Shown piece by piece: positions 14,418 to 63,804 of a stretch of 64,000 bases of DNA. The position numbers were made by a program, and so were the translations under genes. The notes beneath the pieces are model-generated. The model made no database searches. It was not told the origin of the DNA and saw only the letters and a program-made list of their open reading frames with translations. The DNA lies in assembly GCA_949751835.1 (NCBI GenBank), contig CATKHK010000081.1, positions 1 to 64,000 of the forward strand. Direction: 5' to 3'. The DNA is from Blepharisma japonicum (lineage: Eukaryota > Ciliophora > Heterotrichea > Heterotrichida > Blepharismidae). Position 1 is the stretch's first letter. The number at the start of each line of letters is the position of its first letter.

Positions 14418-15053
14418 TTAGTGCTTAGCATGCTGGTTTTGCCAGAAGTTTTGGAGTTGGTCGCTTTCATGATTAGGCACCATTGTAGCAGCGCCAGGAG
14501 CCCATGACTCAGGGCAGACTTCTCCGTGTTCATCAGTATATTGGAATGCTTGTACCAATCTTAAAATTTCTCTTACATTTCTTCCAACAGGTAGGTCATT
14601 GACTGAAATATGTCTCAGAACTCCTTCCTTATCAATGATGAAAGTTCCTCTTAAGTGAACTCCTTCATCTCCTGAGTGGTCAAGATAGACGCCATAGTCC
14701 TTTCCAATTTGCTTGTTAAGATCTGCAATAATTGGGATCTGCATTCTGCCAAGGCCACCGTCAGCTCTTGATTTAAGGGTGTATTCTCTGTGGGTGAATA
14801 CAGAGTCAACTGAGCAGGCTAAAACTTCACAGTTGTTGGCTCTGAATTCAGGAGCAGTATCATTGAACTGAACAATTTCAGTTGGACATACAAAAGTGAA
14901 GTCCAATGGGTAGAAGAAAAGAACAACATATTTGCCCTTGAAGTCTGATAAAGAAACTTGACGGATTCTGTTTCCATCCCAAGCAGTAGCTGTAAATGCT
15001 GGGGCAGGTTTTCTGATTTCAACTTTAGGGAAATATGTTCTTTGGCAAGCCAT
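14418..15053 (-). CDS. Typical 2-Cys peroxiredoxin
   Basis: 211 residues, single exon, stop TAA. The peroxidatic Cys56 lies in [13 protein letters not shown] and the resolving Cys180 in GEVCPESW, with the active-site Arg in GRNVREILR. The [10 protein letters not shown] segment is the GGLG motif of peroxide-sensitive enzymes, but the C-terminal YF motif is replaced by [10 protein letters not shown], so sensitivity to overoxidation may be partial. It reduces hydrogen peroxide and lipid peroxides in the cytosol using thioredoxin. No signal peptide. Confidence 0.95.
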
Positions 15054-15109
15054 TGTTTTATTATTATTAAACGTGGAGATTATTGCCCCAAAATGGTTAA
15101 TTTATTAAG

Positions 15110-16975
15110 TTACCAAATTAAATAATTTAAAATATGCTTAACCTTGAATACGAATATTTTGGATGCTGAGTCCCAGCTGACAAATTCTATTCTTCCTCTT
15201 GATTTCTTTATTAGCTTTTCTCTAAATATATCATCTGGAATATTTTTCTTAGGAGTATATCTGTATAAATAAATTGTTGCTGACTTAGTTGGATTTCGTT
15301 TAACACTCATAACCTCAATTCTTCTCCACTCTATTTTTATTAATTCATCCAAGTCTAAACTTGTTACATTTGTTTCTCCATCAAAAACAATTTTCCCAAA
15401 TTGGTTTTCTACAGTGAAATTTTTGACACTTTTAAGCTCTTCTGTTGTCATACGAGCAAGTTCTATCATTGAAGGCGTAGTAAAGTATCCAGGTCTTTTA
15501 AGCTTCGGAAGCAGATTAGCAGGAGCAAAAATTTGCTTAGACTCTACCTTCTCTTGTGTGACGACTACATTAATGATGTCATCACAAATCATGTTTAGAG
15601 ATTTAACTGTGTCTGAATCTTGTAATATTTTTGACTTAAACATCAATTGGATTCCAGAATCTTCTATCCATCTTACATGCTGAAGAACTTTTGATCGGAT
15701 TTCTTTTATTGTTGTGCTAGAGGTGGCCGAAATATTCATTCTTACTGGATATATGTTGTTTACAACTACTATAATTTCAGTTTTCTCTTCACAATTAGGT
15801 GAATTTGGGAATAATGAAGCAGTCTTTGAGTCAAAATCTTTATATTCTGTAGGTTTCAAATTTTCATAAGATGCTTTTTCAGTGATGGCATATTCTTCTT
15901 TTTCTTCAATTGGCCTTGATGTGAGTGAATTTGTAAAACTTTTTGGAGTGCATGGACTTTTGTCTATATTTTGTCTACATTTATTGGTGTCTACGTCATC
16001 GGTGGATTTTGAAGTATATGGAAATTGGGATAAAAGGCTAGAATTTTTAGGTTTATCAGATAGCTCAACTTCTTTATTTAATTCAGGAAGAGCTTTTAGT
16101 AGAGAATTTAAACAGAGATCGTTAGGATTATCTCTGAAATTATCCAAAATTTTATCTGTTTGAGATGCTTGAGTTTGGCAATATAAGCTAGGCTCTGTTT
16201 GAGTGAAGGCGTCAGATAATCTTTGATAATAGCTTGAAAATAAACTTCCTTTTCTCGGCTGTGTATTACTGCTAAATAAAGGTTCTTTAGCCTGCTGAGT
16301 AGGAGTATAGTATGGAGCTTGAGATTGGACATTTCCAAATAGACTGTTGCCTAGTGAGCTCATTGTAGCCCCTCCAAATAAACTATTTCTGGCACTTGGT
16401 TCAAATAAAGAGAGAGGCTGTGTATTATTTTGTTGCCTATTCATAGAAAATAGTGAAGGATAAGCCTCTTTTAAGCCACCACCAAACAGCAACCCAGTTT
16501 TCATTGAAGGCTGAATCAATGACTGCTGAGCTGGAGTATTAAAAGTATTTCCAAATACCAATATATTGTTGGCTTGGACATGAGAATTTCCGTTATTCAA
16601 TTCTTGATTTAATGACTCCTGATTTGTGGTTTGTGTTAAAAAAGGACTTGGCTGACTTGCAGATAAATTTTTGGGGCTTGAAAAGAGGGGGGTTGACTGT
16701 GTCCCAAATGGTCGCTGTGCTGTTTGGGAAAATAACGAAGGCTGCACAGAATTATCAATAAATGATGATAATGTATTTAAAAGAGGTTTAGCAAAAGAGG
16801 TCGAAGAAGTCTGCTCATGTATAGATGAAAGGAAGCCAGGACTAACTTGAGGAGGATTGATAATATTGGATGCAACAGGCTGAATTGATTGAAAAGGATT
16901 TGAATTAGTAATTTGAGTATTGAAGCCAGTAGGTACTTCTTTGCTAATAGGCTGAAATTGATCTTGAATATTCAT
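15110..16975 (-). CDS. NUP98: Nup98-type nucleoporin, divergent tandem copy with ubiquitin-like domain
   Basis: 621 residues, one exon. About 1-290 is Asn/Gln/Ser-rich with scattered FG-type repeats (LLFGGG, SLFGGA, SLFGNV, PLFSS, SLFSS). A ubiquitin-like domain follows at about 395-475, with the ubiquitin pattern of beta strands, helix, LMFKSKILQDSDTVKSLNM and IINVVV. The Nup98 C-terminal domain (about 480-612) starts KLKRPGYFTTPSMIELARMT. It lies 168 nt from the larger copy and is clearly its duplicate, but lacks the Gle2/Rae1-binding segment. The end reads VKHILNYLIW where the other copy ends VKNF; one extra base near the old stop explains the longer tail. Nup98 forms the permeability barrier of nuclear pores; specialisation between macro- and micronucleus is possible. 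Confidence 0.85.
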   Translation of the reverse strand: MNIQDQFQPISKEVPTGFNTQITNSNPFQSIQPVASNIINPPQVSPGFLSSIHEQTSSTSFAKPLLNTLSSFIDNSVQPSLFSQTAQRPFGTQSTPLFSSPKNLSASQPSPFLTQTTNQESLNQELNNGNSHVQANNILVFGNTFNTPAQQSLIQPSMKTGLLFGGGLKEAYPSLFSMNRQQNNTQPLSLFEPSARNSLFGGATMSSLGNSLFGNVQSQAPYYTPTQQAKEPLFSSNTQPRKGSLFSSYYQRLSDAFTQTEPSLYCQTQASQTDKILDNFRDNPNDLCLNSLLKALPELNKEVELSDKPKNSSLLSQFPYTSKSTDDVDTNKCRQNIDKSPCTPKSFTNSLTSRPIEEKEEYAITEKASYENLKPTEYKDFDSKTASLFPNSPNCEEKTEIIVVVNNIYPVRMNISATSSTTIKEIRSKVLQHVRWIEDSGIQLMFKSKILQDSDTVKSLNMICDDIINVVVTQEKVESKQIFAPANLLPKLKRPGYFTTPSMIELARMTTEELKSVKNFTVENQFGKIVFDGETNVTSLDLDELIKIEWRRIEVMSVKRNPTKSATIYLYRYTPKKNIPDDIFREKLIKKSRGRIEFVSWDSASKIFVFKVKHILNYLIW

Positions 16976-17143
16976 TTTTATTTTTATTAATTATGGAAAT
17001 TGGGAATATAATAAAATTTAAGGGGCTTCTACTTAATTATTTGAAACTCACTTAATTCAATTAAATATTATATCATATCACATAGCTGGAAAAGCAGCTA
17101 TGAATGCACATTATTAAATTATTAAGTTATTAAATTAAATAAT

Positions 17144-19621
17144 TTAAAAGTTTTTAACTTTAAACACCCAGATTTTTGATATTCTATCCCAATTAACAAA
17201 TTCAATATTATCGATCCCTTTTAGTCTGCTTCTAAACTCATTGTCTGTCTCATTTTTCTTTGGAACACAATTAAATAAATAAATTGTTGCTGGCTTGTTA
17301 AGTCCTTCTCCTATTTTATGTTTATCTAGATCATTTGGGTACACATTTACTTCATTTTGATGAATTTCTACTATTTCATCTAAATTTAAGCATGTAACAT
17401 TTGTTTCTCCATTGAAAACAATTTTCCCAAATTGGTTTTCTATAGTGAAATTTTTGACACTTTTAAGCTCCTCTGTTGTCATACGAGCAAGTTCTATCAT
17501 TGACGGCGTAGTGAAGTATCCAGGTCTTTTAAGCTTCGGAAGCAGATTAGCAGGAGCAAAAATTTGCTTTGGCTCTTGAGGCTCTTGAGTCACAATTACA
17601 TCAATGACGTCGTGATGGATCATATTAAGAGATTTTATAGTGTCTGAGTCTTGCAATATTTTTGATTGAAATACCAGTTGGATTCTTGACTCTTCAACCC
17701 ACTCAAGCTGCCTAAAAATTTTATATTTGATTTCTTTTATTATTGTGCTGGAAGTGACTGAAATTTCCATTCTAATTAGGTAGGGGTTATATGCAACTGC
17801 AATAATTTCAGTTATTTTTACACGTTTAGGTGAATCTGATAAGGGGGAAACTGCTTTGAAAAATTTTGAATTGTCTTCGCCATCGCATTCTTCAAGTCTT
17901 AACTTTTCAAAAGACGCTTTTTTAGTGAGTATATATCTTTCTTTTCTCTCTATAATAGGACTGAATCTGGAGGGCTCCCTTTTAATTTTTGGTGTGCAGG
18001 ACCTTCTATCTATACCCTGCCTCCATTTATCAAAATCTGGGTCTCGACTGGTTTTTGGGGTATCTGAAAAACGAGAAATAAGGCTAGTTTTCTTTGGCAG
18101 TTTAAATAGATCAATATCTCTTTTATACCCAGAGATGATTTCATTCAGAGAGTTATGAGAGAAAATAGATGATAGCCCATGGGGATCTTTGAAAGCATTT
18201 AGCATTGCATCCATATGAGGAATTTGGGCTTGGCTATAAAACTTAGGCTGTGGTGTAGTAAAAATATCAGCTGGCTTTTGAGGGTTGTTCGGAAATAAAC
18301 TTCCTCCCATTGCTTGTGCTGAACTAAATAAAGATGTTTGAGCTTGCTGGGAAGAAGCATAATATGGAGCTTGCTGTTGGGGATTTGCAAATAAACTACT
18401 ATTGAGCGAACTCATAGTACCTCCAATCATTTGGCCGTTTGAAGAAATCGCTCCAAATAAAGAGCCTCCCTGCGAGGTATTTTGCTGAGCATTTGCAGGA
18501 AATAATGGAGTTTGGGGTGGATTTAAAGCAGCACCAAATAAAGATCCAACTTGCACCATAGGTTGCATCACTATCTGCTGGGTAGGAGCATTATTTAAAT
18601 TTCCAAACAACGGCTTGTTGGGGGCTTGAGAACTTGGGTTTCCGATATTTGATGTTTGGTTAAACGTCTGTTGGCTTGCAGTTTGAGGAAATAGAGGATT
18701 TGGCTGAGAAAATAAAGAATTTTGAGGGGCCTGAGTTTGCCAAATTGAGCTCGCTCCTCCTGAGATTGCAGATCCTGATGATGGTCCAACTGTAGTATTT
18801 GATGTTGGGGTTTGGCTAAAGATAGAGCTTTGTTGAGTACTAGTTGAGAAGCTTCCATTTGAGTTCCATTGATTTTGAAGATTTCCTCCAAAATTTGGCA
18901 TATTAGCTGTATTACTTGCTGCTGTTGTAGTCCCTGAAACACTTGGAAAAGTATTCGTAGTTTTCAAAGCTGATGTGATTCCTCCAAAATTGCTTGTGGC
19001 ACCTGAAAAAGGAGGAGGTTGGCTAATTATAGGATAAATTCCTATTTGGATATTCTTGTTATGCCCGTTATTAAATTTATAATCCTCAAATCTCAATTCT
19101 TCAATGGATCTATTTTTATAATCTTCTAGACCAGAAATGGAAGTTATTCCAATATGCACTCCTGATGAATCTTCTGCAATGTGAGCGACTCGATATCTTA
19201 AGTTTGTTGTCCCTTTTGCAGAGTTCATCATGCCAGGAGAATTTTGCTGAAAGCCAGATTGAAACCCTTTCATAGGACTTGCAGCCAAATTCATGGGGCT
19301 TGAAAATAGGGGGGCTGGCTGTGCTCCAAATAATTGTTGGCTTCCTGCAGTTTGGAACTGCGGTTGGGAGAAGCCTGAGGGCTGTGGAGGATTTGAGTTA
19401 AAAGATTGGCCCTGAGTGAAAGGGGTATTAGAAAACGAGGATGAAGAAGTTGGCACAGGCATTGCTGTAGAAGTACTAAAGCTTCCTTGAGGAGGTTTGG
19501 TAAAGCCAGATACAAAAGGTTGAGATGATTGAGGTGTATATGAGTTAGAAAAGCTAGAATGAAAGCCAGAAGGATTTGGTTGGCCAAATTGTTGAAATGA
19601 ATTTGGCTGTTGAAAATTCAT
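17144..19621 (-). CDS. NUP98: Nup98-type nucleoporin with GLEBS motif and ubiquitin-like domain
   Basis: 825 residues, one exon. Order of parts: FG/Gln-rich region (1-130), a GLEBS-like Rae1/Gle2-binding segment (about 135-190, with KNRSIEELRFEDYKFN matching the SLEELRLEDY core of Nup98), a second FG region with SLFGAA and SLFGAI repeats (190-480), a ubiquitin-like domain (about 600-678), then the Nup98 autoproteolytic-type domain from RPGYFTTPSMIEL through NVTCLNLDEIVEI to VFKVKNF. The protein ends exactly at the Phe where other Nup98 proteins are cut (HF followed by Ser), so no Nup96 or peptide tail remains, and Asn replaces the His. It is therefore made in pre-cleaved form. All Trp codons TGG. 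Confidence 0.9.
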   Translation of the reverse strand: MNFQQPNSFQQFGQPNPSGFHSSFSNSYTPQSSQPFVSGFTKPPQGSFSTSTAMPVPTSSSSFSNTPFTQGQSFNSNPPQPSGFSQPQFQTAGSQQLFGAQPAPLFSSPMNLAASPMKGFQSGFQQNSPGMMNSAKGTTNLRYRVAHIAEDSSGVHIGITSISGLEDYKNRSIEELRFEDYKFNNGHNKNIQIGIYPIISQPPPFSGATSNFGGITSALKTTNTFPSVSGTTTAASNTANMPNFGGNLQNQWNSNGSFSTSTQQSSIFSQTPTSNTTVGPSSGSAISGGASSIWQTQAPQNSLFSQPNPLFPQTASQQTFNQTSNIGNPSSQAPNKPLFGNLNNAPTQQIVMQPMVQVGSLFGAALNPPQTPLFPANAQQNTSQGGSLFGAISSNGQMIGGTMSSLNSSLFANPQQQAPYYASSQQAQTSLFSSAQAMGGSLFPNNPQKPADIFTTPQPKFYSQAQIPHMDAMLNAFKDPHGLSSIFSHNSLNEIISGYKRDIDLFKLPKKTSLISRFSDTPKTSRDPDFDKWRQGIDRRSCTPKIKREPSRFSPIIERKERYILTKKASFEKLRLEECDGEDNSKFFKAVSPLSDSPKRVKITEIIAVAYNPYLIRMEISVTSSTIIKEIKYKIFRQLEWVEESRIQLVFQSKILQDSDTIKSLNMIHHDVIDVIVTQEPQEPKQIFAPANLLPKLKRPGYFTTPSMIELARMTTEELKSVKNFTIENQFGKIVFNGETNVTCLNLDEIVEIHQNEVNVYPNDLDKHKIGEGLNKPATIYLFNCVPKKNETDNEFRSRLKGIDNIEFVNWDRISKIWVFKVKNF

Positions 19622-43618: not shown

Positions 43619-45775
43619 TTATGATGGCAAATATTTCATGATGGTTTTTATTAGTATTTCAGAACTGCAAGGCTTCATAAGGCACTCTTTCATTCCTGAA
43701 CTTAAACATAAAGAGACGTCAGATTCTGAAGTAAATGCAGTATATCCAATAACTGTTGGCAAGCTTCAAAGTTTTCCTTCAAAGTGCATTTCAACTATTA
43801 TTTTGGTGGCTTCTCAGCCATTGAGCTCTGGCATGCTTCCATCAATAATGATTAATTTATATGGCTTGCCTAGCTCATTTGCTTTTATAACTTTATCTAT
43901 TACTTCAGCGCCTGTACAAGCTTCATGGTAAGGGATATTATGCTGCCTTAAAAGTGTACCCAAAATGATCCTATTGAAATCATTGTCATCTGCTATCAAA
44001 ACTTGTACAGTCTCTTTTGAATGTTTAATAGTGTTAAAATCCCTTATAGATAGCGTAGAAAACTCGCTGAATGAATCATCTAGACATAATTCGTCATAAC
44101 TTAAAGAATTTGCTTGATTTCTCTCATGGATATTTATTGAAAAGCTAAAAATTGAGCCTTTGCCAAACTCTGAATAAACGTCGATTGCGTCATTGCCAAG
44201 TTCTTTTGCAATTCTGTTTGATATTACTAGTCCAAGGCCACATCCATGAGGATTAATTGACTGAGTCATACCTGATTTGAATTCTTTGAACAGATTGTAT
44301 AGGTTTTCCTCAGAAATACCAATTCCTGTATCTTTTACCATTACTTTTAGCCTTGAATTCAGATCTAAAGAGCAAATCACCTCTATTTTCCCTTTAAGGG
44401 TAAACTTTAGTGCGTTGCTCAATAAATTCAGAATAATTTGGCTGAGCCTAAGTGGATCAGTATAAATATAACTTGGCAAGCTTGGGTCAATTCTTTTGAT
44501 AATTTGAATGCCTTTCTTTTCAGCTTGAATTTGGATTAGCTGGATTGTACTATTAATAACTTCATTTAACATAAATTTTGATTTTTGCACTGTAAATGCT
44601 CCTGCAAGCATTTTTGAATAGTCCAGCAGGTCATTTACAAGCGAAATTAGGAGCTTTGAAGAGACTAAAATCATGTTAAGCTTGTCTTGGTTCGATTTTT
44701 TTGAAACTACAGCATGGTCATTCATTAGCTCTTCAGTTAAAAATGTAATTGCGTTAATAGGGGTTCTCAACTCATGTGATACAGATCTCAAAAGCACATT
44801 TTTTAATTTATTATCAGACATGGTCTGTTCAAATTGGATGATGATGTTTGCATCTCTGACCGTCAATAAAATACTGTCATGACGCTCTCATATGACTTTT
44901 TGCCCCTTTATTTCCAAAATAAAATTTCCAGCCTTGCATAAACCTAATATAACTTCTTCGTTTACACCTAAATGTTTGATTATGTTAAGGTCATCTATTA
45001 ATTTCTTTGAGTTTGACAAATTACAGTATTTTTTCCCTTCAACATACTCCAAGCTTGATAATATTTCTATCACTTCATTTGGTTGGCAATTTAACAGCCT
45101 GGTTAAATTGTGATTTGAGTATAAAGTTTCGCTATCCTCACCTAAAACAATAATCCCATCAGTAATTAAACTGAAAATCACGCTTAGCCTGCTTTTTGTA
45201 TCTTCAAGGTTTTTTCTTGAGATGAACCTTTCGTAAGATCTTGATCTCAAAAAGTATGAGTTCAGGTTATATAGGAAAATTATTAAGAATGCTACAATGT
45301 GAGGCATATAATCTGCACTTAGAACAAGCTCTCCGAGAAAATATTTGTTATAATTCCAAAAAAGCAAGTGCTTTAAGATGACAAGGCTTTTTATTCAGCT
45401 TCCTTGAATAAACGGGAGCTCAAAGCTGTTAATAAAGACAAGAGATAGCATTTCAAATAGTATCCCAGTTGATTTTCATTCATTATTTCCTTGGAGCCAT
45501 AAAATGCAGCAATTAAATTCTGAAAATCCAATTGAAAAAAGAGATTTGGCCAAATGGCCTTTTTTCCCAAAAAACCAGACCAAACTGCAATTCACTGAAT
45601 GTATTATTAAGTAAGGTGTGTTCATAATGGCTATATCAAGACCATTTGGGATTATTGTAAGACAAGTAATAATTAAGGCAACTGCTGCATATCATAAAGA
45701 ATATGAATATTTCCTGAGAACTTGGTATTTTTCGCTGACTTCTTCGTCCCATCATTGATAGTAAAGCTTTTCCAT
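43619..45775 (-). CDS. Hybrid histidine kinase 1 (membrane, PAS-like, HisKA, HATPase, receiver)
   Basis: 718 residues, no intron, many TGA Trp codons that cut it into pieces under the standard code. It begins MEKLYYQWWDEEVSEKYQVL. Five or six hydrophobic segments occupy about 25-195. A PAS-like linker follows (SLITDGIIVLGEDSETLYSN). Phospho-acceptor His334 lies in SVSHELRTP; the ATPase N-box is QIILNLLSNALKFT, G1 is DTGIGISEE and G2 is GCGLGLVISN. A receiver domain ends the protein, with LIADDNDFNR and phospho-acceptor Asp645 in IIIDGSMPELNG. It is thus a complete hybrid kinase; the signal sensed by the membrane part is unknown. The closest relative in the window is kinase 3. Confidence 0.92.
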
Positions 45776-46453
45776 ATCTTATGTTTATATTAGAATAATA
45801 AAAATCCTTCTAGTAAAATCATTTTGTGCATTTATAAATGCGAAGTTGTATTAAATTAATAAGCGCAAATATTTCAACAAACAAAATAATATTTCTTTTG
45901 TGGATTGAAATGTACCGAATGATTAGCATTTTTAATTATTTATATTATTGAAATTTGGAATTTAATTTTGAACCAAAATTATCATTTACTCCATTTCTTA
46001 TTAAAATAATCAACTTCTATGCCTTATTTCATAATAGCTCAATAAAGGACAAATTTTAAAAATTTTGTAATTAAATAATGGTATTTAAGCTAATTTAAAT
46101 ATAAGGAAATCTGAAACTTAATTTCTGAAAGCAAAGCTAATCATAAAAGAAGTCAAATTTATATGTACTATAAAGCGCAACTTATTCGCCGATGTTTGAA
46201 GTCTAAATAATTATTCTGTGCTCCAATATAAATTTTGTTATTTACGATGCTCAAGTTCCATTTCTTTTTAAGAATGAGAAATAACTTGAGCTTTTATTAG
46301 TTTTCTGAGAATTTATTTTTCTAAGCTATATCTAGAGTTTCAATCCTGCTTGGAAAAATCAAAATTTTAACAGTAAAATCAAAATTGCCTTCCTAGTTTT
46401 TCAATCAGAATTTTTACTCATCACTCATTTTAAAGATATTAAAACTCATTCTT
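45776..46453. other. AT-rich intergenic region
   Basis: 5' flank of hybrid kinase 1. A 39-codon frame (45810-45929, minus) is hydrophobic but not supported. Otherwise no gene. Confidence 0.45.
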
Positions 46454-46783: not shown

Positions 46784-47018
46784 TCCTTGGAATAGCTCAA
46801 TTAATTATTGTTTTCCCATCTGAAATTTTCCTATCGTTAAATATATGATTTCTTCCTAGGCATATGCATTTTTTGCATCAATTTTTACTTATAATTCATT
46901 TTAAAAACTATTCTAATGACAGCCTCTTCCATTATTAAAATATTAAACCAGACACAATTCCTTTATAATGTATCCATATTTCAGGGCCAAATTACTTGCT
47001 GGCAAACTGAAAAAGAAA

Positions 47019-49202
47019 ATGACTGAAATCCAAGATTTGTGATGGGCACAAGAAATTGAAAACCTATATAAACTCCTAGAAAGATTCAGCGTATTTTCTA
47101 CAGTCTTAAGCGTTCTATTTAGGTTTTTTTGCTTTTTTTGACATTTTGAATATTTTTCTCACTCAAGTTCTATCACTTTCCCTTTAGCAAGTATATTCTC
47201 AGTTGGTGTTGTAAAATATTTTTCTAATAAATCAGTTAGATGCAAAGCTTTGGTTTTGCTTTTGTACTCAGAAACCCTTAATTTTCTATTTAGATATGAG
47301 GCGAAATTTATACAAGAAAACCAAAAAGAGCTACTGGAAACTATTTCGTTCCTTGTGGTGCTTCTTTTTCAGCTAGCAATGGTTAAAAATAAGCTCTATT
47401 TCAATATCTTGCTTTTAAAGTACATGTATGTTTGGTTTATTAGTGATTTATTCATCAGAAATGGGCAAGATGTCTCCATCTATTACTGCCATTTGATGAT
47501 TATCATTATTTGTTTTATCAATGTTTTGCACTCCCACTCAATAAAGATCTCTTTTGAAAGGTTTATATCTAGGAATGAACTTGAAATTTCGAAAAACAGG
47601 CTCAACACAATCAAAGAATCTTTCTCCGATGGAATTATCATAATTTCCCAAGACCTCAAAATCCAATTCTATAATCCTAGAGTTCTTCAAATTTTGGCAA
47701 CAACTCCTGACAATCTTTTTAACACTCTTTCATCAGCTCATTATATAGAAAATAGAAAAGTCTCGAACTTTATCCCAACGAACGAACTAATTGTTGATAT
47801 TTCTTATTTATTAAACAACAGTGAGCAAACTGAAATAGTTCTTGGGATAACTCAGATTGGGCAATCCAATTTGGAGTGAAGGGCAATGCAAATAGAATGG
47901 GAAAATCTGAAGGCGGTATTTCTTACAGTAAGAAATGTAAATCATTTAATAGAGCTTGAGAAAAAAGTTGCCTGTGACCAAATGAAAACTTTACTGTTGA
48001 GGTCTGTTTCACATGAGCTTAGAACTCCTCTTAACTCTATACTGCATTTTACTGAAGACTTGATTAAAGACGCAAAAGATTGAAGAGGGGAAGAAGCAAA
48101 AAAATTGAAAATGATTTATATTTCAGGACAACAAATGTTGGCACTTATAAGCGATTTGCTTGATTATTCTCAAATTTTGATTGGAGTTTTTTCGGTTCAT
48201 AAGACATATTGCAATTTGAGAGAAATTATACAAAATGCGTGCGAGTTGTTTAAATTTCAAATTGAGAAAAAAAATTTGTTTGTTACTTATAGAATAGATC
48301 CAAGCCTCCCTGATATGATTTATACAGATCATTTGAGATTTAGTCAAATTATATTGAATTTGCTTAGTAATGCTATAAAATATACGTTAGAGGGTAAAAT
48401 CGAAATTACATGCACCCTCACATCAAAGAATTCGATGAAATGCTACATTGAAGACACAGGAATCGGAATTGAAGAGTCAGCTATGAAAAACATGTTTAGA
48501 TTTATGAAAACCTCCAATGTCCCAAATTTAGGTCCAAAAGGAAATGGCATAGGCCTTTATATTTCAAATCTCTTAAGCAGGCAGCTAGGAAATAAGTCTA
48601 TTAAAGTCAAGTCAAGTATTGGAAAAGGTTCAGTTTTTTATTTTAAAGTCGATATTTTTGAGAATTTCTCCCCAAGCGAAATTCTTGATAAAATTGAGTC
48701 AAATGATAACGAAAATATTTTACCAATATCAATACCAAGTAATTATATTAAAAAAGAAGAACCTAAAGATGTTCTTATTGTTGATGATACAGAATTTAAT
48801 CTTGAGATATTAAGCTCTATATTATCAAGCGGAGATGTCAAATATGACGAAGCTTCAAATGGGAAGGAAGCAGTTGAAAAAGTCCTGAAAAAGGATAATG
48901 CTGATCAACCTTATAAGCTAATTGTGATGGATTGCGAAATGCCAGAAATGAATGGATGGGAGGCTTCTCGGTATATTAATCTACTTTATAGGCAAGGGAA
49001 AATTAAGTATTTGCCACATATTGTGGGATATTCAGCATATTGCTCAGACGAAGATATTAAGCTCTGCTACCAAAGTGGAATGATAGAGTTTTTACCAAAG
49101 CCTTGCTCTCCTGATAAAATTTTAAATACTCTTAAAAAGTTTTATATGTATAAAGTTATATTAATTTCCATATTTTTACTGAGTTATCCAAGCCTGCTGT
49201 AA
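47019..49202 (+). CDS. Hybrid histidine kinase 2
   Basis: 727 residues from MTEIQDLWWAQEIENLYKLL, chosen because it lines up with the MExLYYQWW starts of the paralogues; an ATG at 46968 in the same frame would add 17 residues. Hydrophobic segments to about 180, PAS-like segment (ESFSDGIIIISQDLKIQFYN), His332 in SVSHELRTP, N-box QIILNLLSNAIKYT, DTGIGIEES, GNGIGLYISN, and a receiver with VLIVDDTEFN and Asp638 in VMDCEMPEMNG. After the receiver it has an extra hydrophobic tail (KVILISIFLLSYPSLL) absent from the other kinases; this tail is antisense to the end of the WD40 gene. Two TGA codons are read as Trp between 47877 and 48083. Confidence 0.9.
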
Positions 49203-53524: not shown

Positions 53525-55684
53525 CTAGGAAAGATACTTGAAAACTGTTCGGATCAACAACTCTGAGCTGCATGGCTTTGTGATGACTTCTTTCATTCCA
53601 GACTCTATACAAAGCTTGAGCTCATCATCAGTATTAAAAGCCGTGTAGCCTAAAATAGTTGGTAAAGTCTTGATTTCACCTTGAAAATAAGAATCCAGTA
53701 TCATCTTTGAAGCTTCTCAGCCATTCAACTCAGGCATTGAGCCATCCATAATAATGAGTTTATATGGTTTACTTTTTCTATCACTTTCAAAAGTAAGCCT
53801 TACAGCTTCTTTTCCAGAGCACGCTTCATCATAAATAATGTTATATTCTGCCAAAGATGTTCCCAAAATAATACGATTGAGATCATTATCATCTGCTATT
53901 AAAATTTCTGCTCTCTTTTTGCTTTCAATCAAATAGTCAAAATTTCTGATGGAAGCATAAGGCCTTTTATTTTCACCAGGAGAAGGATTAATTTCTTCAT
54001 AAATTGCCTCTGAATTAGATATATTTTCAGTAATATAAACTGAAAATTCAAACTTTGAACCTTTATTTGCCTTTGATTTAACTTTAATACTTTCACCTCC
54101 TAGCTCTTTTGCTATTCTATTTGCAATAAAAAGTCCTAATCCGCAGCCTTGAGGATTTATATTTTGGCTTATTTCTGTATTAAATTCTTTAAACAGCCCC
54201 TTCAATTTTTGCTTTTTAATTCCAATTCCTGTATCTTTTACGCTTAATTTTAATTTGTGGTTTATATCTAAAAAACACGCAATATCTATTTGGCCTTTAA
54301 GTGTAAACTTTAAAGAATTGCTAAGAAGATTAAGCAAAACTTGGCTTATTCTAAGTTGATCAGAATATACATAAGTAGGCAATTGAGGATCGAGCCTTGT
54401 GATAACTCTAATACCCTTTTTCTCAGCTTGGATTTTTATAAGCTGAATACAACTTTCAATAGTGCTAAGTAAATCAAATTTAGACCTTTGTATTGAGAAG
54501 ACCCCTGCAACCATTCTTGAGTAATCTAATAAATCGTTAACCAAAGATAATAAAAGATTGGATGACACAGAAATCATTTTCAATTTCTGCATAACACTTT
54601 TATTGTTTGCAATACAGTTCTCACGACAAAGCTCTTCAGTAAAAAAACTTATTGAATTTATTGGAGTTCTGAGTTCATGAGAAACTGACCTCAATAGAAC
54701 ATTTTTTAATTTGTTATCTGCTGTCGTTTGCTCTAATTGAATCAAATTATTTACATCCCTTATAGTCAGTAAGACTGCTTCTGTTTCTTCTCATATCACT
54801 TTTTGGCCTTTTCATTCCAAATTATATTCATCCACTTTTGTTAGCCCAAGCATAATTTCTTGGTTTAAAGTTAAATGCTGGATATTCCCTATATCATCTA
54901 AAATTTTATTAGAATTGGATAAATTTGCATATTTTTTCCCATCGCAGTATTCAATATTTGACAATAAATTTACAATTTCTTCTGAATCCTGACACCTTAA
55001 AAGCCTCTTTAAATTTTGATTTGAATATAAAATTTCGTTTTCATAAGACAAAATTACTATTCCATCTGGGAATAAATTGAAAATTAAACTCATTCTTGAC
55101 TGCAGGCAGTTAAGCTTATGATGCGCAATAAATCTCTCATATGACTTTTCTTTAAGAAAGGATGAGTCTAAGTTGTATAAAAACAGAATTAGAAAGGCTA
55201 ATAAATGAGCAAAAAATCCTATTTGAAATCATTCGTATTCTCCTGTGAAATATCTGAAGTGATTTCATATTAATATATGCTTTGCAATAACAAAGGTTTT
55301 ACTGTACCATGCTTGAATAAACGGGAGCTCAAAGCTGTTAATATATACAAAAGCAAGCATTTGGCCTAATGTGTTAACTTCTTTCCATAAAATATTGCCT
55401 TGAATTCATAAACAAGCACAATTGCCTTCAGCAAATAAAATTGAAAAAATAGATTTTGCTAAATAGCCTTTTTTATCCAAATAACATATCAAATAGCATT
55501 GCCCTGAATGCACCAAAATTCATGGCATGGAAAATTTAATAATCGTATACGTATCAGACCTTAAAAGTAAGCAGAGAATTGTAAAAAAAACTGCTATCAC
55601 TCATAAGAGGTAAGAAAACCTCTTAATTACTTGATATTTTTCATTGACTTCTTCATTCCACCATTGATAATATAGCCTCTCCAT
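53525..55684 (-). CDS. Hybrid histidine kinase 3
   Basis: 719 residues, no intron. Begins MERLYYQWWNEEVNEKYQVI, nearly the start of kinase 1, and shares the membrane-region segment YINSFELPFIQ with it. PAS-like part SLIFNLFPDGIVILSYENEI; His336 in SVSHELRTP; N-box QVLLNLLSNSLKFT; DTGIGIKKQ; GCGLGLFIAN; receiver with LIADDNDLNR and Asp647 in IIMDGSMPELNG; end KPCSSELLIRTVFKYLS. All catalytic motifs are present. It is the nearest relative of kinase 1, about 8 kb away in the same orientation with kinase 2 and two other genes between. Confidence 0.92.
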
Positions 55685-55979
55685 AATGAAATTTTTACAA
55701 ATATTATTATATTTATAATAATCTTTTTTATTAAAATTTCCAACAACGAATTAGTTTTTTTTATTTCTACTGTATTTTCGAAATTTCTCATTTTCGATCG
55801 CCCTTATAACGAAACTGAATTAAATATTTATAAAACATAAATATTCTTTAATATAGGATTAATAAAAATTCTGAACCGTTTTTAATTGATTAAAATATTA
55901 AAAACCTTTAAACAATGATCAAATTCAAAAAATAATGAGTTTTTTTAGATTTAATCTTGAGATTAAATTTTTTTTAATA

Positions 55980-61363: not shown

Positions 61364-63493
61364 TTATAAATATTTAATTACAGTCTTAATTATCTCTTCT
61401 GATGAGCATGGCTTTGGCAAAAATTCTGTCATCCCACTCTCAAAGCAAAGTTTAACATCTTCATCGGAATTATATGCAGAATATCCGATAATGATAGGCA
61501 AAAAATGAATGTTCCTTTCTCTATACAACTGATTGATAATCTTAGTGGCTTCTCATCCATCCATTTCTGGCATACTTGAGTCCATTATAATCACTTTAAA
61601 AGGTCTCTGCTCTCTCTCGTGCTTGATTACTTTTTCAATTGCGATTTTTCCATTAATAGCTTCGCAATATGCAATTCCATAATTTTTTAAAATTGAACTC
61701 AAGATTTCTAAATTAAACTCCATATCGTCTACTATCAAAACAGTCTGATTCCAAATTTCTTTGAAATTACTATTTGAAACAGAAAAACTTGGATTAACAT
61801 TTTCATTACATTCGTCAGTATTAATTGGGTTATCTATTTTATGATCGCTATTTGCAGCATTTATATCAATTATAAATGAAAAAATTGATCCTTTGCCTGG
61901 AATTGATTTAACTTTTAATGCTTCTCCTCCTAATTGCATAGAGATGAGATTTGAAATATAAAGTCCTAAGCCTTTTCCTGTAGAATCTATTGTTGGCATC
62001 GCTAATGAATTTAGCTCTTCGGCCATAGTTTTTAATTTTCTATCATTTATTCCAATTCCTGTGTCTTCTACATAACATTTTAGTGTATTTTGCAAAGTTA
62101 GAACGCATGAAATTTCTACTTTTCCTTTAAGTGTATATCTAATTGCGTTCAAAGCCAAGTTCAGTAAGATTTGACCAAATCGAATTGGGTCGGTATATAT
62201 ATGTGTAGGTAATAAAGGATCTAACCTATAAATAATTGATAATTCTTTCTTTTCAGCTTGAAGTTGTATCAAATCACATATATTTGCTATGATTTCTTTT
62301 ACATTACAATTTTTTTTTGCAATTTTTAATCCGCCTGCTAAAATTTGGGAGTAATCAAGTAAATCATTTATTAATGAAAGCATAAGCTTCCCAGAAACTA
62401 AGACTGTTTTTAGTTTTTTCTTTGTACTCTCATCAAATATCAAAGCACTATCTTCTAATACGTTATTAGTGAAATAAATAATAGAATTGAGAGGAGTTTT
62501 TAATTCATGTGAGGCTGATCTTAATATTAAGTGCTTTATATTTTGTTTCGCAATATTGTTTTCAAGTTCAATAATTTGATTTGCATTTCTGATAGACATA
62601 AAAAGTGATGGTTCGCCTTCCCAAATTATATTATTTGCTTTTCACTCAATATTTGTGCCTTCTGTTCAAGAAATTCCAAGAACTATTTCTTCGTTTGCTG
62701 GATTGTTTAATAAGTAAGTAATATCATCAATTAATTGCTTTGAACTATTTAAAACTGAAATTTTTTTCCCTTCAATATAATTTATCGTGCTTAGAATATT
62801 TTTTAAATTTTCTGAATTTGTATTGAGTAGCTCAAAGAATTTTTCATTATTAAATGCAATATCACCGTTTCTAGTAAGAATAATTATTCCTTCTGTCAGA
62901 GATTGAGTTATTATATGCAATCTATTTTTTTGATTTTCTAGCTCTTTCTGATAAAAAAATTTTTTATAAGAGTGCTTGATAAAATGAAATCTGCATGCAT
63001 TGCAGAGAAGTATGGCAGTTATAATGTCTAAAAGAGGTGATATAGGGTTTTTAATATCTGAATACAAAATATCAAAATGAATGTGCCATAAATATACATG
63101 TGCAAAAAGTATAAGATTAAATAATCATGTGTTTTGAATTATTGTAAATTGAAGTTTCATTCTTAGAATAAATCCAAAAACTTCAAATATGGTTCCATTG
63201 ATTTGTGTTTTTGATAATATATAAAACATTATATTGTGATATTCATTTGCAATTATCAAAGCAATGAGTTTTACGAAGGCACTTCTTTTAGATAATGACA
63301 TTATGATAACCAAAGAAAACATATTCAGTAATAGAAGTGGAATATAAAACTTTCAGGTTAATTGAGTTGGATCTAAAATTTCGTTGATAAGCTTAGGTAT
63401 TGGAGCTAAACATGAAAGTTTAGAAACTTTTATTAAAAATTTAAAAATCTCTTCAACTTCTTCTTTAAGTCAGAGCTTTTTAATCGAATTCAT
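61364..63493 (-). CDS. Hybrid histidine kinase 4
   Basis: 709 residues, no intron, about eight TGA Trp codons. Begins MNSIKKLWLKEEVEEIFKFL and has hydrophobic segments to about 180. PAS-like segment QSLTEGIIILTRNGDIAFNN; His329 in SASHELKTP (Lys for the usual Arg); N-box QILLNLALNAIRYT; DTGIGINDR; GKGLGLYISN; receiver VLIVDDMEFN with Asp638 in IIMDSSMPEMDG; end KPCSSEEIIKTVIKYL. The N-box has Leu-Ala for Leu-Ser but keeps the metal-binding Asn. It is more like kinase 2 than kinases 1 and 3 in the receiver (SYA or SAY after GYS). Complete by motif. Confidence 0.92.
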
Positions 63494-63804
63494 ATTATTT
63501 ATACCTGATTTTTTTTTATTAACAAATATCAAGGGTGTTTTATAGGGTAATCAAAAAATTATTCGATTATAAGGCAAAGTGTTTTTAAATAGGAAAGTAA
63601 TAATATAATAATGATAATTATACTAAATATTTAAAATTAGCACATATAAACAATTGACAAAAATTATAAATTAATTTTTTTCTAAAGTCAGCAGCATTAT
63701 ATCTTTCAATTGGTTCAAGAAATATAAAGAATATACTTTATTCCATCTATGTATACTTAAATTAAGTTCTCAGAGTAGTAATATAAATCCAACAATAGCA
63801 GAAC

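Follow-up and report, generated by a model that had tools for sequence, protein, structure and literature searches.

The locus analysed here raises the question of what a ubiquitin-like domain (UBL) would be doing in the nucleoporin Nup98, and why it should be found in each of two neighbouring Nup98 genes. The genes lie in tandem in a 64,000-nucleotide stretch of DNA (the window). Both are encoded by its minus strand and are arranged head to tail, with the large gene upstream and the small gene downstream.

Identity and architecture of the gene pair

The large paralog (17144..19621, minus strand) is an open frame of 825 amino acids followed by a TAA stop, and the small paralog (15110..16975, minus strand) is an open frame of 621 amino acids, also closed by TAA. 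Both frames are open under translation tables 1 and 4, with no internal stop. No in-frame TGA is present in either and the translation is the same under table 1 and table 4 (TGA=Trp). Pfam searches placed the Nucleoporin2 domain (PF04096) in the large protein at aa 700-825 (E 1.3e-32) and in the small protein at aa 495-618 (E 2e-16), and Nup98 chains of known structure in the PDB matched the large protein with E values down to 2.5e-20 and the C-terminal domain of the small paralog with E values down to 1.4e-11. Judged by these domain matches, both genes are Nup98 paralogs in tandem.

The C-terminal domain (APD, Nucleoporin2) of the large paralog occupies 17147..17533 (minus strand, aa 697-825) and ends in KVKNF directly before the stop. 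That of the small paralog (15113..15493, minus strand, aa 495-621) has diverged: there is a seven-residue gap relative to the large protein, dN is 0.51 across the region of aa 748-823 (large-protein numbering), and the end reads KVKHILNYLIW-stop. The APD of Nup98-96 cuts after HF and before S. This site is kept in neither protein, the large one stopping exactly there, and the Nup96 part is absent from both genes. The preliminary description had called the domain autoproteolytic-type, a term which holds by homology but not for the active site, and from the residues at their ends we conclude that these APDs cannot cleave as in Nup98-96. The HF-S site defines Nup98-Nup96 precursors and not every Nup98. 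Only Nup145 of the three yeast Nup98 paralogs is fused to a Nup96 part, unfused Nup98s being ordinary (PMC4283134), and in Tetrahymena TtNup96 is a separate bait protein (PMC5450191). At 15110-15140 the C-terminus of the small paralog seems to be frame-shifted relative to the large one, KNF-stop having become KHILNYLIW-stop; the DNA at the 3' end of the small gene resembles that of the large gene with a small insertion which shifts the last codons.

A GLEBS (Gle2/Rae1-binding) motif was identified in the large paralog at 19079..19138 (minus strand, aa 162-181) from a match to the C-terminal half of the PF21240 profile. The match scored 28.0 bits when the segment was searched alone (cut-off 27) but fell below the cut-off, at 22.8 bits, when the whole protein was searched. 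By phmmer this GLEBS also matched a Nup98 peptide of 56 residues with a solved structure (3mmy_B, E 0.0049). For the small paralog no GLEBS match was obtained in Pfam up to E 10 and the pairwise alignment of the two proteins has a gap there; the motif was found in the large paralog only. Of the yeast Nup98 paralogs, three in number, a single one has GLEBS, a motif which is not universal among Nup98s (PMC4283134). By eye, the segment KASFEKLRLEEC (aa 568-579 of the large protein, 17885-17920, minus strand) resembles the end of GLEBS, but it was rejected as a second copy of the motif since the linkers of both paralogs are without any Pfam match up to E 10.

The N-terminal regions of both proteins (16208-16975 and 18257-19621) are of low complexity, and charged residues make up 1.8% of this region in the large paralog versus 8.6% in the small. 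The large protein contains seven FG dipeptides in 399 aa (aa 1-130 and 187-455) and the small protein five in 256 aa (aa 1-256). This density of about 1.8-2 per 100 aa compares with 6.3-10.3 per 100 in the ten Nup98 FG domains studied in PMC4283134 (Table 2). In both regions the residue after F is most often S or G. The Pfam Nucleoporin_FG model matched the small paralog only, and weakly (E 0.13), and in neither protein does the part that precedes the UBL (aa 1-600, large; aa 1-395, small) contain GLFG or NIFN. The large paralog is like Nup98 and yeast Nup116 in its C-terminal Nucleoporin2 domain, its low-charge N-terminal region with GLEBS, and its lack of a Nup96 part, while both paralogs differ from them in the UBL before the APD and in the few FG dipeptides. 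The small paralog stands further apart, with no GLEBS, an N-terminal region of 8.6% charged residues and a diverged APD.

The ubiquitin-like domain

Directly upstream of the APD, at the same place in both paralogs, lies a segment which matched the Pfam family 'ubiquitin' (PF00240). In the large paralog the UBL spans 17576..17824 (minus strand, aa 600-682), and the match, at aa 618-679, scored 29.5 bits (E 6.2e-7 in the whole protein, 1.6e-8 for the segment alone). In the small paralog it spans 15542..15787 (minus strand, aa 397-478), and the match, at aa 414-474, scored 31.4 bits (E 1.6e-7 and 5.7e-9, respectively). Both scores exceed the curated Pfam cut-off of 25.4 bits. A profile made from the two 85-residue UBL segments was run against 177,635 PDB sequences and gave 25 matches at E up to 0.1, with the UBL of Rad23 at the top (E 4.5e-6). 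All 25 were named Rad23, ubiquitin or ubiquitin variant (polyubiquitin and designed variants included), ISG15 or SUMO, and no nucleoporin was among them although long Nup98 chains were present in the PDB set. Local alignment to ubiquitin gave z values of 7.2 for the large and 6.4 for the small UBL, and for each paralog 0 of 2000 shuffles scored as high as the real segment. Both UBLs were also scored at 14 positions which we take to be the hydrophobic core of ubiquitin; 14 of 14 were hydrophobic in the large UBL and 13 of 14 in the small one, a count which serves as support only, as aligners favour hydrophobic matches and the alignment of the first strand is shaky. The preliminary description had proposed tandem Nup98 genes, each with a UBL before the APD, at about residues 600-678 of the large and 395-475 of the small protein. 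The matches to both Pfam domains, the profile match to Rad23 and the shuffles bear this out, and the Pfam positions agree with the residues given.

At the surface, the alignment to ubiquitin shows K48 kept in the pair, with I44 replaced by V/M and V70 by I/V, while H68 is changed to D/N and R42 to Q; L8 is replaced by P/I, at a point where the alignment is shaky. The UBL is internal and TQEP/TQEK stands near the place of the RLRGG end of ubiquitin. Because the C-terminal GG is absent, the predicted domain is of type II, internal and non-conjugated, and not a conjugated modifier. No UBA was matched in either protein in Pfam up to E 10, although matches weaker than about 0.1 are mostly removed by the HMMER filters. 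The UBL-UBA shuttle factors such as Rad23, whose UBL is the closest solved relative (at the E of 4.5e-6 given above), differ in that the UBL is N-terminal there and internal here, and in the UBA that was not matched in either Nup98.

Structure prediction had been proposed as a check on the segment, and it gave models of low confidence. With a two-row alignment, AlphaFold2 returned a pLDDT of 36.6 for the UBL together with the APD (aa 587-825) and 44.8 for the UBL alone. The low-confidence UBL model contained strand, strand, helix, short helix, helix and strand, and the third strand expected of a beta-grasp was not drawn. A Foldseek search with this model found 207 matches at E 10 or below; the best had E 0.52, and none reached 0.001. 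Among the 50 of these 207 that were listed were the UBL of FAF1, ubiquitin variants, ISG15, UFM1 and FAT10 along with unrelated folds, an ESX-3 core complex chain being the first. We do not take the Foldseek result as evidence. In the combined model the APD itself, the identity of which is certain, reached a pLDDT of at least 50 at only 13 of 129 positions. Since the undoubted APD was modelled badly too, the low pLDDT was not counted against the UBL fold, and because models from two sequences are too poor to confirm a beta-grasp, the fold assignment rests on the sequence comparisons. These poor models (pLDDT 37 and 45) and the lack of a significant Foldseek match are what would speak for a chance resemblance to ubiquitin in a linker without such a fold. 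We regard this as very improbable, given that two paralogous segments separately exceeded the Pfam cut-off, that the profile reached Rad23 at so low an E value, that no shuffle equalled either segment, that the segment is under purifying selection as described below, and that the low pLDDT is not peculiar to the UBL.

Over the 611 codons of the paralog alignment, dS was 0.81 and dN 0.37. In the UBL (aa 603-682) dN/dS was about 0.26, and it was 0.29 over aa 603-664, before a near-identical tract, compared with 0.59 in the linker just upstream. Fisher tests on rounded counts of nonsynonymous and synonymous differences in the UBL gave p values of 7e-6 and 5e-4. The UBL is under purifying selection. 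With dS in the UBL of about 0.8-0.9 between the paralogs and the same position of the domain in both, the UBL has long been retained by both copies, and its place upstream of the APD in both genes is most simply explained if it was present before the duplication.

The near-identical tract lies at 17399..17569 of the large gene (minus strand, aa 685-741) and at 15368..15538 of the small gene (minus strand, aa 480-536), outside the UBL. Only 6 nucleotides differ over its 57 codons, while the flanking 30-codon windows show 54-77% identity. Over aa 683-747 about 9 of 43 synonymous sites differed, compared with 191 of 362 outside this stretch (Fisher p 8e-5). From this pattern the tract is likely to have arisen by gene conversion between the paralogs, the rival explanation being strong selection on the codons.

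The preliminary description had known of no Nup98 with a UBL, and we likewise found no report of one in the titles and abstract openings of the papers listed by searches of the open literature. In the canonical Nup98 an 'intervening domain' separates the FG region from the APD, and the sequences surveyed in the same article may include some in which a UBL went unnoticed (PMC4283134). The word 'ubiquitin' does not occur in the main text of an article on the Tetrahymena Nup98s (PMC5450191). Searches of viral, bacterial and archaeal collections found no relatives of the UBL with the APD or of the APD alone, a result which is uninformative on other ciliates.

Proposed role of the domain and the two kinds of nuclei

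We read the locus as a pair of tandem Nup98s with a type-II UBL that serves in docking in general, and we give this reading a probability of about 0.6. The APD fixes Nup98 to the pore scaffold (PMC4283134) and would anchor each of the present paralogs in the same way, and this anchoring would give the UBL a set position on the pore. There it would offer a docking surface for ubiquitin-binding modules, whether UBA, UIM or the proteasome receptors of Rad23-type UBLs. Recruitment of proteasomes or shuttle factors is favoured among the possible partners, as the nearest solved relative of the UBL is Rad23; proteasome receptors are bound by the UBLs of Rad23-like shuttle factors, and proteasomes accumulate in the vicinity of pores (PMC6568242). 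The proteasome is nevertheless a tentative leading guess, since with H68 and R42 altered, and L8 shaky, Rad23-like binding by the ubiquitin surface patch is not assured. Of the two proteins, the GLEBS-containing large paralog would serve Rae1/Gle2-dependent mRNA export, and the one lacking GLEBS would serve another pore or pore site. If the docking reading is true, the UBL in Nup98 makes a direct physical link from the pore to the ubiquitin-reading machinery, and it gives a clean domain deletion with which to probe that link where two kinds of nuclei share one cell.

The serious rival to docking is a contact with the scaffold, the ubiquitin face being only partly kept. The UBL would then act outside ubiquitin biology, as a spacer or as part of the scaffold-binding surface of the APD (for example towards Nup96, Nup88 or the inner ring). 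The linker between UBL and APD is short in both paralogs, and conservation between the two proteins is highest in this linker and the beginning of the APD, a feature which gene conversion may also explain. The loss of H68 and R42 points the same way, but both paralogs retain hydrophobic residues at the positions of I44 and V70, and on balance we consider the scaffold role rather unlikely. Docking of the mRNA export receptor Mex67/NXF1, whose UBA would give it a second grip on the UBL beside the sparse FG repeats, would fit the binding of this UBA to FG nucleoporins (PMC8583845) and the FG dipeptides that are so few in comparison with other Nup98s (PMC4283134). The ligand described for the UBA is, however, FG, bound with a KD in the tens of micromolar, and no UBL ligand of it is described in the part of PMC8583845 considered here. 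The UBL is moreover equally well kept in the paralog without GLEBS, so that mRNA export is not singled out, and we hold this partner to be improbable.

A further question is whether the pair divides the two nuclei between them, the large protein being macronuclear and the small, GLEBS-less one belonging to the transcriptionally quiet micronucleus. Tetrahymena has nucleus-specific Nup98 paralogs (PMC5450191, PMC4432229), and a GLEBS in the large protein only would fit a transcribing versus a silent nucleus. The present genes are alike to MacNup98A/B and MicNup98A/B of that ciliate in being ciliate Nup98 paralogs. The macronuclear and micronuclear proteins there differ in GLFG versus NIFN repeats (PMC5450191, PMC4432229), and, compared by published description, these repeats and hence the contrast between them are absent before the UBL in both proteins here. 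The same GLEBS difference is seen in yeast, which has one kind of nucleus (PMC4283134), and the genes, to judge from the near-identical tract, seem to have exchanged sequence. The difference in GLEBS and the divergence of the APD would allow the paralogs to specialise, yet a division by nucleus appears doubtful to us. Its combination with the proteasome idea, in which Rad23-like UBLs at every pore would hold proteasomes or UBA proteins while the GLEBS paralog was macronuclear and the GLEBS-less one micronuclear, is more improbable still.

Genetic code and remainder of the window

The window has a GC content of 31.7%; it gave no Rfam match at the gathering score, and no tRNA. Four further frames, three on the minus strand (43619-45778, 53525-55750 and 61364-63622) and one on the plus strand (46947-49202), were recognised as histidine kinases from Pfam matches of standard-code pieces to the histidine kinase ATPase and receiver domains. 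The receiver domains of the three minus-strand kinases are cut by an in-frame TGA at a conserved place (MPELNG*EA or MPEMDG*EA). Receiver domains often have Trp at the position that follows MPELNG/MPEMDG. When TGA is read as Trp the three frames extend to 719, 741 and 752 aa, and TGA thus seems to encode Trp in the source organism. Splicing was considered as the cause of the broken frames and set aside as a poor explanation, TGA=Trp accounting better for them. Blepharisma stoltei also reads UGA as Trp, a feature which it has in common with the window, and its introns are mostly 15-16 bp (PMC9942806). The code fits a heterotrich, and Blepharisma or a relative is the likely source of the window. 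No excess of GTA-N10-AG 15-mers was detected in the window (77 observed versus 87.8 expected from shuffles), a count which argues neither for Blepharisma nor against it, as introns in small number would go unnoticed.

A peroxiredoxin gene (AhpC-TSA, E 5e-37; 14418-15101) follows the small Nup98 gene immediately downstream on the same strand, with about 56 bases between the Nup98 stop and the first in-frame ATG of the peroxiredoxin frame.
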